Translations under genes and position numbers: made by a program
NCBI GenBank assembly: GCA_009772925.1
Contig: WOUQ01000001.1
Location: forward strand, 186,001-250,000
Length of the DNA: 64,000 nucleotides
Direction: 5' to 3'
Origin: a bacterium
Lineage (GTDB): Bacteria > Pseudomonadota > Gammaproteobacteria > Burkholderiales > Thiobacillaceae
Notes under the pieces: model-generated
What the model was told of the DNA's origin: nothing
Databases searched by the model: none
The model's input: the letters and a program-made list of their open reading frames with translations, nothing else
Shown: piece after piece, positions 1,612 to 6,251 of the stretch
Position numbering within the stretch: the stretch's first letter is position 1
Layout: each line of letters opens with the position of its first letter

Positions 1612-2220
1612 ATGGCGGCCATGCACACCAGCCTGGATTTTCTGCGCCACGGCGAGCCCATCGGCGGTAAACGCTATCGCGGCCAGACCGACGATCCCCT
1701 GTCCGACAAGGGTTGGGCGCAGATGGCCCGCGCCACCGCCGGGGAACGTCCCTGGAACGCGATCGTCTCCTCGCCGTTGCGCCGCTGCCTGGCCTTCGCC
1801 ACCCGCCTGGCGGACGAAACGGGCCTGCCCCTGACAGTGGATGCGCGCCTGGCGGAAGTGGGATTCGGCGTCTGGGAAGGCCGCACCGCGGCGGAGCTGG
1901 AACGCGAGGAGCCCGGCTGCGTGTTCGCCTTCAAGCAGGATCCCCTGGCGCGACGTCCGCGCGGCGCCGAGGACCTGGCCGATTTTCAGGCCCGCGTGGC
2001 GGATGCGTACGAGGATCTGCTGCGCCTGCACGCCGGCCGGCATGTGCTGGTGGTGGCGCATGCCGGCGTCATGCGCATGGCCATCTGCCGCGTCCTCGGC
2101 CTGCCGCCCGCGCACGCCTACCGCTTGCAGATCGGCTCCGCGGCGATGGCCCGCATCCGCGTCGAGCAGGGCGAGGGCGGCCGCTTCGACAGCCTGTTGT
2201 GGCTGACGCCGGGCGTCTGA
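1612..2220 (+). CDS. Histidine phosphatase, probable alpha-ribazole phosphatase (CobC-like)
   Basis: A phosphoglycerate-mutase-type phosphatase of 202 residues with the catalytic RHGE near the N-terminus, the ISSPLRRC arginine motif, and the second histidine in VVAHAGVMR. CobC enzymes dephosphorylate alpha-ribazole phosphate in lower-ligand assembly of cobalamin. The role is suggested by the convergent neighbour, which carries a cobalamin adenosyltransferase domain. The family is large, so another phosphatase substrate remains possible. The start may be 1612 or 1621; neither has a clear ribosome binding site, and the 4-bp gap to the ParA-like gene suggests translational coupling. Confidence 0.75.
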   Translation: MAAMHTSLDFLRHGEPIGGKRYRGQTDDPLSDKGWAQMARATAGERPWNAIVSSPLRRCLAFATRLADETGLPLTVDARLAEVGFGVWEGRTAAELEREEPGCVFAFKQDPLARRPRGAEDLADFQARVADAYEDLLRLHAGRHVLVVAHAGVMRMAICRVLGLPPAHAYRLQIGSAAMARIRVEQGEGGRFDSLLWLTPGV

Positions 2221-2226
2221 AACGTC

Positions 2227-4656
2227 TCAGCCGCGCGCGCCGGGACCGCGCCAGGTCGGCTCGGCCTGGCCGAGCACGCGGTTGATGCGGCGCGAGAGCA
2301 CGAACAGCAGGTCGGACAGGCGGTTCAGGTACTGGCCCAGCTTGGGCGACAGCAGTTCGCTTTCCGCCAGCGCGGTCAGGCGCCGCTCCGCGCGCCGGCA
2401 GACGGTGCGGCAGACGTGGGCCTGCGCCGCCGCCGGGCTGCCGCCGGGCAGCACGAATTCGGTGAGGGGCGGCAGGCCGGCGTTGTAGGTGGCGATGGCC
2501 TGGTCCAGGCGCAGCACGTCGGCCTCGTGGATCTGGCTGACCTCGGGCCAGGCCAGTTCGGCGCCCAGGTTGAACAGGTCGTGCTGAATGTCGATCAGCA
2601 GGGTCCGCAGCTCGGCGGGCAGGCTGGCGTCGAGCAGCACGCCGATCTGGCTGTTGAGTTCGTCCACCGCGCCGATGGCCTCGATGCGCGGCGCGTGCTT
2701 GGCCAGGCGGGTGCCGTCGGCCAGTCCGGTGCTGCCGTCGTCGCCGGTGCGGGTGACGATCTCGGTGAGGCGCTTGAAGCCCGCGCTGGCGGGGCTGACG
2801 TCCTCGGTCTTCTCGATGAAGCGCTCGATGTCGGCGGCCGGGCGTCTCTCGCCGTTGGGCAGACGTTCGCGGCATTCGCGGAAGATGCGTGCCGCGCAGC
2901 CACGGCAGCGCTCCGCGTCGAGGCGCGCATAGATGGCGGCGATGGCGTCGGGTTTATGGACGAAGACATGGTCGGAGCCGATCTCGGACTGATAGCCGCC
3001 CTGCTTCAGCATGTCGCGCGTGGCATCGCGCAGGCCGCAGAGATAGAGGCCGCCGCCCACTCTGCGCCGCCGTCGGGCCTCGTAGGCCAGCAACTCGGCG
3101 CCGGCCAGGTCGATGGTGTTGATGCCGCGGGCGAACAGCAGCAGATGGCGCTGCGAGGGCACGTGCTCGTCCACCGCGGCGAAGGCCTGCTGGATGTGGT
3201 CGACGGCGCCGAAGAAGATGGAACCCTCGACGCGCAGCAGCTTGAGTTGCGGGCAGTCGGGCTCGGCGCCGCTCTCCACCACGAACTTGCGGCGCGGATT
3301 GGTCGGGTCCTTCGCGTCCGGCAGCAGGGGGCGGATGGCGGGGTGGGAGGTGCCACGCAGGTAGAAGATGAGGGAGGCGACGATGCCGAAGAAGATGCCC
3401 TTCTCCAGGTCGATGACCGTGCCGAAGAAAGTTACCCCCAGCACCACGGCTTCCTGTCGGTGGGCCTTGAGGATGGCGCCGATATGGTGGAAGTCGATGA
3501 GGTTCCAGGCCACCAGGAACAGCGCCGCCGCCATGGCCGGGACCGGCAGGTGGGCGGCCAGCGGCGCCACCAGGAACAGGATGAGCAGCAGGAAGAGCGA
3601 GGAGAACACCGCCGCCAGGGGGGTGCGGGCGCCCGATTCGTAGTTGACGCCGCTGCGGTTGAAGGAACCGCTCGAGGCGTAAGCGGAGAAGAAACTGCCG
3701 AACAGGTTGGAGAGGCCCTGACCGGCGAATTCCTGGTTGCCGTTGATGTGTTGCTGCGACTTGGCGGCGATGGAGCGGGAGATCGACACCGCCTCGGTGA
3801 GTGCCAGCACGGTGACCGCCAGGGCGGAGAAGAAGGTGTTTTGCAGGGCGGACAGGGAAAAGTCCGGCGCCGACAGGGGCGGCAGGCCGGCCACCAGGGC
3901 GCCGACATGGCCGATGCCGGTGACCTCGTTGCCGAACTGCCGGTCCAGCACGGCCGCGACCAGTCCTCCGGCGATCATGGCGACGATCAGGTAGGGCACC
4001 TTCCGCAGATACTTGCGCGCCAATATTCCGGCGATCAGCGACACCACCGCCACCGCGGTGACGTAGGGGTTGAGATCATGCAGGTGGGTGAGGAGCTGGC
4101 CCAGCACCTCGTAGGCTGGCGTTCCCCGCGCGATGTCCAGTCCGAAGAAGTTCTTCACCTGGCTGGCGGCGATGAGCAGCGCGGCGCCGGCGGTGAAGCC
4201 GATGACCACGGTGTGCGAGATGAAATTGACCAGCGCGCCCATCCTGGCCAGCCCCAGAATGAGCTGGAACAGGCCGGTGAGGAAGGTGAGGGTGAGCACC
4301 ATGCCGATGTATTCGGGCGAGCCCGGCTCGGCGTAGGGCGACACGGAGGCGAACACGACGATGGAAATCGCCGTGGTGGGGCCGGACACCAGGTGCCAGG
4401 AGGAGCCGAACAGGGCGGCGATGATGGTCGGCACCATGGCCGCGTAAAGGCCGTATTCCAGCGGCAGGCCGGCGATGGCGGCGAAGGCCACCGCCTGCGG
4501 CAGGACGATGAGGGCACCGGTGAGGCCGGCGATGCCGTCGTCCTTCAGGCTGGCACGGTTCACCCGGTGCTGCCATTTCAGGAAGGGCAGGAACTGATAG
4601 AGCCAGAGGTTGCAGGCGAGGAATTCGCCGAGGCGCTCGCGTTTCAGGAAGGACAT
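2227..4656 (-). CDS. SulP anion transporter fused to PduO-type cob(I)alamin adenosyltransferase
   Basis: An 809-residue fusion. Residues 1 to about 430 form a SulP (SLC26-like) membrane domain for an inorganic anion such as sulfate or bicarbonate. They are followed by a STAS domain and the cysteine motif CRGCAARIFRECR near 595. From about residue 630 the protein is a complete PduO-type ATP:cob(I)alamin adenosyltransferase, recognised by TRTGDDGSTGL near its start, VDELNSQIG, and the C-terminal RLSDLLFVLSRRIN. No stop codon and no ATG, GTG or TTG is seen in the linker that would allow a separate adenosyltransferase product. Each half is normally a stand-alone protein. The convergent CobC-like gene fits a cobalamin link. 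Which anion is carried is unknown. Confidence 0.88.
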   Translation of the reverse strand: MSFLKRERLGEFLACNLWLYQFLPFLKWQHRVNRASLKDDGIAGLTGALIVLPQAVAFAAIAGLPLEYGLYAAMVPTIIAALFGSSWHLVSGPTTAISIVVFASVSPYAEPGSPEYIGMVLTLTFLTGLFQLILGLARMGALVNFISHTVVIGFTAGAALLIAASQVKNFFGLDIARGTPAYEVLGQLLTHLHDLNPYVTAVAVVSLIAGILARKYLRKVPYLIVAMIAGGLVAAVLDRQFGNEVTGIGHVGALVAGLPPLSAPDFSLSALQNTFFSALAVTVLALTEAVSISRSIAAKSQQHINGNQEFAGQGLSNLFGSFFSAYASSGSFNRSGVNYESGARTPLAAVFSSLFLLLILFLVAPLAAHLPVPAMAAALFLVAWNLIDFHHIGAILKAHRQEAVVLGVTFFGTVIDLEKGIFFGIVASLIFYLRGTSHPAIRPLLPDAKDPTNPRRKFVVESGAEPDCPQLKLLRVEGSIFFGAVDHIQQAFAAVDEHVPSQRHLLLFARGINTIDLAGAELLAYEARRRRRVGGGLYLCGLRDATRDMLKQGGYQSEIGSDHVFVHKPDAIAAIYARLDAERCRGCAARIFRECRERLPNGERRPAADIERFIEKTEDVSPASAGFKRLTEIVTRTGDDGSTGLADGTRLAKHAPRIEAIGAVDELNSQIGVLLDASLPAELRTLLIDIQHDLFNLGAELAWPEVSQIHEADVLRLDQAIATYNAGLPPLTEFVLPGGSPAAAQAHVCRTVCRRAERRLTALAESELLSPKLGQYLNRLSDLLFVLSRRINRVLGQAEPTWRGPGARG

Positions 4657-4693: not shown

Positions 4694-5134
4694 TCAGCCG
4701 GATGGTAAACCGGCTTTCGTTGTCAGGCAGCGCAGGTAGGCTTCACCGTCTGGGGGCCGATTGTAACGCTGTGCCTGCCAGAGCATTTCCGCCAGGCAGT
4801 CCATGACCGCGTGCTGGGCGGCGTGCTCGTCGCCCAGCCGGGTGGCCAGGGCCTGGTAGCGGGCCTTGACGCCGGCGGGCTGGTCGATCGACAACTGCTC
4901 GGCGATGGCCAGATGCATGGACAGGTGCAGGAAGGGGTTGGTCTGGCCCATTTCCGGCAGCCAGTCGCGGTCGCGGTGGCGTTCCGGCTGCTCCAGCACG
5001 GCGTGGTATTCCGGGTGGCGGCCGATGTGCTCCGCCGCCATGGCTTCCAGGTCGGTCAGCGGCCGGCCGGAGCGGAACTTCGCCCAGGCGTCGAAAAAGA
5101 ACTGGCGGGCTTGGTCGCGGCTGGGATCAAACAT
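4694..5134 (-). CDS. DUF1841 family protein
   Basis: A 146-residue cytoplasmic protein recognised as DUF1841 from its opening (MFDPSRDQARQFFFDAW), the NPFLHLSMHLAIAEQ segment and the C-terminal RYNRPPDGEAYLRCL. The function of the family is not known. Its start overlaps the stop of the upstream FIST gene by 8 bp, so the two are probably translated from one message. No signal peptide or membrane segment is visible. Confidence 0.85.
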   Translation of the reverse strand: MFDPSRDQARQFFFDAWAKFRSGRPLTDLEAMAAEHIGRHPEYHAVLEQPERHRDRDWLPEMGQTNPFLHLSMHLAIAEQLSIDQPAGVKARYQALATRLGDEHAAQHAVMDCLAEMLWQAQRYNRPPDGEAYLRCLTTKAGLPSG

Positions 5135-6251
5135 CGGCGTAACCCAGTGCCAGCACCACGCTGTACTGCAGCAGGCGGTTGCCGCCGTCGAGATGGGCGA
5201 TCTCGCCGTTGCCGTAGAAGCCGGCGCAGGGCATGCCGGGAAAGCGCCGCTTCAGGGCGAGGATGTCGCGGTCCTCGCCGCCGTAGAAATAGGGGCCGCG
5301 GCCCATGCAGGGAAACATCAGGCCGAAGGCGGGAGGATCCGCGCGTTCGCCGGCCAGGCGCGCGAGCATGAGGTCCATGTCGTGCTCCGCCGCCTGCGGC
5401 TGGCGCAGGGCCCAGAACAGATCCATGCCCGGCGCCAGCCGGCCGGCAACGGTGACGGATTTGTCGGCCGGGTTGGCGGCCACCACCGGCAGCAGGTGAA
5501 AGCGGCCTTCCTCGACGGCGTGCTCGCGCTCGCCGTAGGGCAGTCCGGCCATGATCAGGTGGGTGGGCATGCGCTCCGGCGAGCGCAGGCTGAGGGGCAG
5601 TTCCCGCACCAGGCTGGCCAGCGCCTCTATGCCGCCCAAGGCTTGCAGGTCGTGGCCCTGCACGCGTTCCACCGGCAGAGGCCGCGACAGCGGGCGCACG
5701 CCCTGGGAAACGCCGACGCGCAGACTCGCGCCGGCGAGGTCAAGCTCGCAGCGCCCGCCGTCCTGGACGCGGCCGCCACTCCACACCGAATACGGACCCT
5801 GGCCGGTGGCGTCGCCGGAGACGCCGCCGAAGCGCCGTCCACCCGCGGCCAGCCAGGCCATGTCGAGGGCGTTCGGCGCCGCCAGGGTGAGCTCGGCCGC
5901 GGCGGCGGCGCCCTCGTCCTGTCGGCGGGCTGGCCGCAGGTCGACGCCGTCGCCCAGCACCAGGGCGGCGGCGGCCGGCGCGTCGAGCACCCAGTCCTGC
6001 TCGGTGAACACGCCGGCCGCGGTGCAGCCCGCCACCTGCAGGCAGCCGGCGGCGCGCGCGGCGGCGGTGAGGGCGGGCCGCGGGTCGTCGGCGAAATCGG
6101 CGCTGAGGTACAGCAGCACCGCCTGGGGATGCTCCAGTTCCGCCCGCTGCATGGCGGCCCGCACCGCCTCGCGCGCCAGGCCGGGCTCGGCCACGCGGCC
6201 CTGGGCGAGTCCGGAACCGGCTTTCAAACCGATTAGTCCCGGTAATCGCAC
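5127..6251 (-). CDS. FIST domain sensory protein
   Basis: A 374-residue protein with an N-terminal FIST domain (residues about 30-220, including CLQVAGCTAAGVFTEQ) and a FIST_C domain (about 225-360, including LMFPCMGRGPYFYGGEDRD). FIST domains are thought to sense small ligands, perhaps amino acids, and are often joined to kinases or chemoreceptors. Here the domain stands alone. The start overlaps the end of nth by about 19 bp and the end overlaps the DUF1841 gene, so it may be the tail of the rnf-nth transcription unit. No effector domain is present, so a partner protein must pass on any signal. Confidence 0.85.
   Translation of the reverse strand: MRLPGLIGLKAGSGLAQGRVAEPGLAREAVRAAMQRAELEHPQAVLLYLSADFADDPRPALTAAARAAGCLQVAGCTAAGVFTEQDWVLDAPAAAALVLGDGVDLRPARRQDEGAAAAAELTLAAPNALDMAWLAAGGRRFGGVSGDATGQGPYSVWSGGRVQDGGRCELDLAGASLRVGVSQGVRPLSRPLPVERVQGHDLQALGGIEALASLVRELPLSLRSPERMPTHLIMAGLPYGEREHAVEEGRFHLLPVVAANPADKSVTVAGRLAPGMDLFWALRQPQAAEHDMDLMLARLAGERADPPAFGLMFPCMGRGPYFYGGEDRDILALKRRFPGMPCAGFYGNGEIAHLDGGNRLLQYSVVLALGYADV

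Follow-up and report, generated by a model that had tools for sequence, protein, structure and literature searches.

An open frame of 809 codons was found in the window, the 64,000-nucleotide stretch of Thiobacillaceae DNA analysed here. Along this frame, a SulP permease and a STAS domain come first; a CxxC-x7-C motif is next, and a flexible linker then leads to a full PduO-type ATP:cob(I)alamin adenosyltransferase (ATR). On balance, the frame probably encodes one bifunctional inner-membrane protein, which would have arisen by loss of the boundary between neighbouring genes and been retained for its needed ATR half. Each half belongs to a known family; what stands out is the pairing of a SulP transporter with an ATR. 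No report of a SulP-ATR fusion was found in searches of open-access literature, as judged by the titles and abstracts listed.

Frame, domains and joint of the fusion gene

The first-pass annotation had described one uninterrupted frame joining SulP, STAS and a complete PduO-type ATR. This description held: the frame is open throughout and all three domains were found by Pfam (Table 1). Sulfate_transp (299 bits) precedes STAS (35 bits), the order expected of SulP/SLC26 proteins, and Cob_adeno_trans scored 194 bits, with positions 1-170 of the 171 of the profile covered. The ATR half also matched the NCBIfam model TIGR00636 (PduO_Nterm) with 186.7 bits, above the cut-off of 108.45. The protein scored 364.8 bits against TIGR00815 (sulP), under the curated cut-off of 380.45; as this is a subfamily model, the miss concerns membership of that subfamily and leaves the Pfam assignment untouched.

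Table 1. Features of the fusion gene and its neighbours, with positions in the window.
Feature	Position	Strand	Basis or remark
SulP-STAS-ATR fusion gene	2227..4656	(-)	809 aa; Pfam and NCBIfam; whole in 11/61 genomes
SulP (SLC26) transmembrane domain, residues 37-408	3433..4548	(-)	Pfam PF00916
STAS domain, residues 472-565	2962..3243	(-)	Pfam PF01740
Invariant C468, start of STAS	3253..3255	(-)	98/98 distinct relatives
CxxC-x7-C motif (C584, C587, C595)	2872..2907	(-)	97/98 distinct relatives
Linker, residues 607-632	2761..2838	(-)	Start-codon scan, dN/dS, model confidence
PduO-type ATP:cob(I)alamin adenosyltransferase (ATR) domain, residues 633-790	2287..2760	(-)	PF01923 and TIGR00636
DUF1841 gene, upstream neighbour in fused and many unfused relatives	4694..5134	(-)	PF08897
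FIST-domain gene, upstream of DUF1841	5127..6251	(-)	PF08495/PF10442
Histidine phosphatase gene, convergent with the fusion gene	1612..2220	(+)	Under CobC cut-off

The fusion point lies directly behind the CxxC-x7-C motif, and the final residues of the linker already align with the start of free ATRs. The annotation had also noticed no usable start codon in the linker, and none was found: ATG, GTG and TTG are all absent in frame from the window gene over the stretch that begins at residue 584, the first motif cysteine, and runs to residue 663. The first in-frame candidate start after residue 584 is a GTG at 664, already within the ATR domain. In an AlphaFold2 model built with 43 sequences (mean pLDDT 77), the ATR domain was confident and the linker stretch 619-633 fell below pLDDT 50.

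Ratios of dN/dS were calculated with our own Nei-Gojobori script for six pairs of sequences. Between the window and locus L007 they were 0.11 for the membrane domain, 0.24 for STAS, 0.22 for the ATR and 0.57 for the linker. With L016 as the window's partner, the domains gave 0.28-0.47 and the linker 1.18; in the pair of L010 and L011 the linker was saturated. These sequence comparisons indicate that purifying selection acts on both the SulP and the ATR domains and that the linker is held more loosely.

Distribution among genomes

The same architecture was sought in 61 genomes, namely the window's own genome (G000, in which the window lies on contig 26, G000:C26) and 60 relatives. It was found whole in 11 of them, the window's own included, the other ten proteins being 76-96% identical to that of the window. 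Ten of these genomes belong to the same genus (G000, G001, G002, G004, G010, G012, G015, G018, G020 and G021) and one, G030, to another genus of the same family. All 11 frames are open and encode 803-816 aa with the chosen starts; an internal stop in the matches of G012 and G030 proved to be the gene's own end. In G014, the ATR with the linker and the start of SulP each run into a contig end, and this is probably a twelfth fusion genome.

Within the family, PF01923 was present in 37 of 117 genomes, in 11 of those within a frame of at least 800 aa. In an even sample of 249 genomes across the phylum, it was present in 100 and lay inside an open frame of more than 600 aa only in G000 and G234. 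No convincing fusion besides that of G000 was found in this sample: the ATR of G234 (L164) starts at an ATG of its own without any accompanying SulP match, and the long frame was taken as chance. A 603-aa frame in G140 was rejected as a fusion because it is in a different reading frame from its upstream sulP gene. Among 80 of 343 relatives, at least nine named loci were fused, and all nine come from metagenome assemblies. The L048, L037, L039 and L098 assemblies carry doubtful-looking organism labels (Bordetella parapertussis, Thiobacillus denitrificans, Tepidiphilus); three of these loci, L037, L039 and L098, hardly differ from loci of the window's genus group.

Unfused relatives and the origin of the fusion

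Gene neighbourhoods were surveyed by searches with named neighbours, as ORF clustering was too noisy in GC-rich DNA. The two activities had been said to have no known connection, which is nearly right; yet sulP and atr adjoin in nine unfused genomes, overlapping in eight and lying in frame six bases apart in one. The stop of sulP shares a TGATG with the start of atr in G036, G134, G135, G136 and G140, and atr has a GTG start eight bases ahead of the sulP end in G033, G061 and G062. The in-frame pair, with six bases from stop to ATG, is that of L048, from another lineage. In 13 genomes, atr follows DUF1841 without sulP between, with a match-to-match gap of up to about 380 bases. The SulP proteins of G017, G019 and G022 are 73-76% identical to that of the window, and no PF01923 match was found in these three genomes. 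Their SulP gene stands directly behind DUF1841 in G017 and G022 and is followed by a rarA-like gene (by eye) in all three, in G022 after some 300 bases.

Trees were made for each half by a quick search. In the SulP tree (59 chosen rows, the partial gene of G014 absent), a branch set the 11 fused proteins apart from all others with an SH-aLRT of 89. This support does not reach the level that the program stars, and the chosen outgroup did not itself form one side of a branch. The nearest kin of the fused group were the proteins of G017, G019 and G022, and the SulPs of overlapping pairs (G036, G136 and others) stood in a neighbouring clade. In the ATR tree (53 rows, the partial gene of G014 included), the 12 fused domains grouped together with an SH-aLRT of 99, amid free ATRs linked to DUF1841; the ATRs of overlapping pairs stood elsewhere. 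Since each tree gathers its fused domains, SulP or ATR, into one group, there was probably a single fusion event in this Thiobacillaceae lineage. The overlapping pairs are best taken as an illustration of how such a joint can form and not as an established direct ancestor, because of their distance in the ATR tree and because the closest SulP kin of the fused group (G017, G019 and G022) lack PF01923.

The ATR half and the supply of cobalamin

The closest solved structures of the ATR half were 2zhy and 2zhz, the PduO-type ATR of Burkholderia thailandensis, with 59-60% identity across the whole enzyme. In the alignment with 2zhy, the blocks RTGDDG, DELNS, LPGG, CRTVCRRAER and NRLSD are retained. 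A PduO-type ATR is normally a free protein, whereas here it is the C-terminal domain of a membrane protein.

No second PduO- or CobA-type ATR was found in G000 (100% complete) or in G001, G010, G014, G015, G018 and G030 (71-99% complete). The fused ATR is thus the only one found in seven of the 12 fusion genomes, G000 included, the absence of a gene being weak evidence in incomplete genomes such as G018 at 71%. CobA is additionally present in the fused genomes G002, G004, G012 and G021, and G020 has only scraps of it at contig edges. Among the 23 genomes of the window's genus, all 11 that lack PF01923 have a CobA match (in two pieces in G013, partial in G017), and G003 has a free PduO-type ATR. 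When the CobA regions of three relatives were searched, a cobalamin riboswitch was found at L178:2637-2840 and at L179:3178-3372, and none in L181.

In G000, an NrdJ match (616 bits) and two mutase genes were found. A BtuM-like gene lies beside a TonB receptor gene (L195, G000:C20), without CobA alongside (gene names by eye); the BtuM search query matches a solved chain named 'Cobalamin ABC transporter'. Neither CobS nor a FecCD permease was found in G000. From the TonB receptor and BtuM-like genes and the lack of CobS and FecCD matches, G000 is likely to import cobalamin and to require an ATR for its use, and the fused ATR would carry out this adenosylation. That SulP itself imports cobalamin is unlikely, G000 having the BtuM-like gene beside the TonB receptor gene.

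The convergent phosphatase gene had been pointed out as a CobC-like neighbour. As a clue to function it found no support. The phosphatase scored 144 bits against TIGR03162 (alpha-ribazole phosphatase, CobC), under the cut-off of 162.9, and G000 lacks a CobS match. When downstream flanks of about 1.6 to 6 kb were searched in the nine named fused loci, a CobC-like gene was adjacent only in L036 and about 3.3 kb off in L037. The link to CobC is therefore weak.

BtuR is a CobA-type enzyme. A possible, if rather unlikely, explanation of the fusion is that it was selected for keeping the ATR at the inner membrane, the site of cobalamin delivery by BtuM; incoming cobalamin would then be adenosylated immediately and trapped. 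A comparable case is the BtuM-BtuR pair of Thiobacillus denitrificans, in which a membrane transporter gene is likewise linked with an adenosyltransferase gene and for which BtuR beside BtuM was proposed to trap cobalamin metabolically (PMC6072759). The account of the pair given there has BtuM itself binding cobalamin and BtuM and BtuR as separate proteins (PMC6072759); SulP, unlike BtuM, would make no plausible cobalamin carrier. Trapping is also favoured by the gene order TonB receptor-BtuM-CobA in the relative G023 (L181; by eye, CobA by search) and by the probable import of cobalamin into G000, where no ATR besides the fused one was found. However, the BtuM-like gene of G000 is not adjacent to the fusion gene and lies on a different contig (G000:C20 and G000:C26, respectively), and no cobalamin riboswitch was found within the 64-kb window. 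No BtuM match was found in four of the 11 intact fused genomes (G002, G012, G018 and G021). Moreover, CobS is present in G001, G002, G012 and G015 (G030 was outside the CobS search), so not all fused genomes would depend on import.

One protein or two

It is unlikely that the frame yields two proteins, SulP and a free ATR, by internal initiation or by proteolysis in the linker, the fusion then being merely genetic. The linker is loosely constrained and poorly ordered, as a protease-accessible tether would be. In G030 (L016), the ATR domain begins precisely at an ATG, codon 629, which has a GGAGG eleven bases before it; the linker also contains an ATG in G001 and a GTG or TTG in several other fused genes. 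With such starts at hand, a free ATR may additionally be made in some lineages. In the window, by contrast, initiation within the frame would need an unusual start, as none of these three codons occurs over residues 584-663. All 11 intact fusions also stay in frame despite varying linker length; proteolysis alone would not demand the exact frame unless cleavage follows full translation. A single chain must serve a dimer-forming transporter and a trimer-forming enzyme, and cleavage might be favoured for it.

The transporter half and its cysteines

Prestin and AtSULTR4;1 were among the best-scoring solved structures for the transporter half, and BicA was also found. The window protein shares with these SulP/SLC26 transporters the membrane domain followed by STAS. 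It was compared with 98 proteins at least 50% identical to it over at least 500 aligned residues. E288 and R334, invariant in all 98, align with E347 and R393 of AtSULTR4;1, in which proton coupling was associated with E347 and sulfate binding with Arg393 (PMC8298490). The conservation of this pair suggests that the transporter half is likely a proton-coupled anion symporter.

The CxxC-x7-C tail, a hallmark of this SulP subfamily, is covered by no Pfam family. The one exception for the three motif cysteines, L095, ends at a contig end. The tail, the four invariant cytosolic cysteines (a trait of the subfamily) and the ATR domain set the window protein apart from AtSULTR4;1, BicA and prestin. 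Two other SulP proteins of G000 have no such tail (by eye). Also noted, at L003:1450-3600, was another SulP protein from this genome, 716 aa long, whose match to the window's SulP is interrupted by a long insert.

A metal might be bound by the four cysteines, in a possible zinc or iron-sulfur site. It was further considered that a metal or iron-sulfur centre at C468, C584, C587 and C595 feeds the tethered ATR the electron for cob(I)alamin, the dimeric and trimeric halves building hexamers or a lattice. This is judged improbable; if true, an anion transporter would have become a membrane-bound, redox-linked coenzyme B12 station.

Other domains behind the cysteine motif

Fusions of SulP with carbonic anhydrase and rhodanese are known, and Usp and ATR domains both bind ATP. 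Within this SulP subfamily, a sister clade was found to carry Usp domains behind the same cysteine motif, at the attachment point of the ATR, as in the SulP-STAS proteins at L070:637-3282, L022:1489-4080 and L033:1480-4068. Usp was confirmed by Pfam in three of the nine long proteins and deduced from length and tree in the other six. With Usp behind the same motif in the sister clade, the tail has gained different domains at least twice. Unlike in other C-terminal SulP fusions, the partner here is an enzyme of cofactor synthesis, and frequently no other of its kind was found in the genome.

Usp at the same place makes the tail look like a recurrent attachment site for nucleotide-binding domains, and the ATR half could then be an ATP or cobalamin sensor that gates the anion transporter, like other C-terminal additions to SulP proteins. 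This is very improbable: 78 of the 97 motif-bearing proteins of the subfamily end within about 30 residues past the motif and need no such domain, and the ATR half retains the conserved blocks of its family and is often the only ATR found.

Discussion

An assembly or sequencing artefact joining two separate genes can be ruled out for practical purposes, since, although the nine named fused loci all come from metagenome assemblies, the same in-frame joint is shared by 11 genomes whose proteins are 76-96% identical to the window's and whose linkers differ.

Fusion by loss of a gene boundary, followed by retention for the ATR half, is the preferred reading. It would have started from sulP and atr as neighbours within a tight FIST-DUF1841-sulP-atr cluster. 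The stop and start between them would have been lost, probably once, to give a single frame, and the fusion would have been locked in by the need for the downstream ATR half. In the window's species, the ATR half could then no longer be started alone by a usual start codon. Retention would follow from the second half being so often the only ATR found. The N-terminal half would be a SulP/SLC26-type anion transporter, probably proton-coupled, and the C-terminal half a cytosolic PduO-type ATR on a flexible linker, making adenosylcobalamin for users that in the window's genome would be NrdJ and methylmalonyl-CoA mutase. A direct chemical link between the two activities would be unnecessary. What we infer from the sequences is that both halves are active, that the cell contains a single polypeptide, and that the events took place in this order.

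The first-pass annotation had offered two readings, an accidental gene fusion that persisted and a tether of adenosylcobalamin synthesis to the membrane. Both are tenable. As the origin, the first is favoured by the relatives; the second, tethering, follows if the SulP domain inserts, and might bring a benefit.

The pairing and its unfused counterparts would surprise a specialist. As the only detected ATR of the cell often sits on a membrane protein, these organisms offer a test of whether location matters for B12 trapping, and dimer-forming and trimer-forming domains in one chain offer a clean test of assembly. Unfused relatives still display touching or overlapping sulP/atr pairs. The locus would be a clear natural case of the birth of a stable two-function protein, by way of neighbouring genes, loss of their boundary and locking-in by one needed half.
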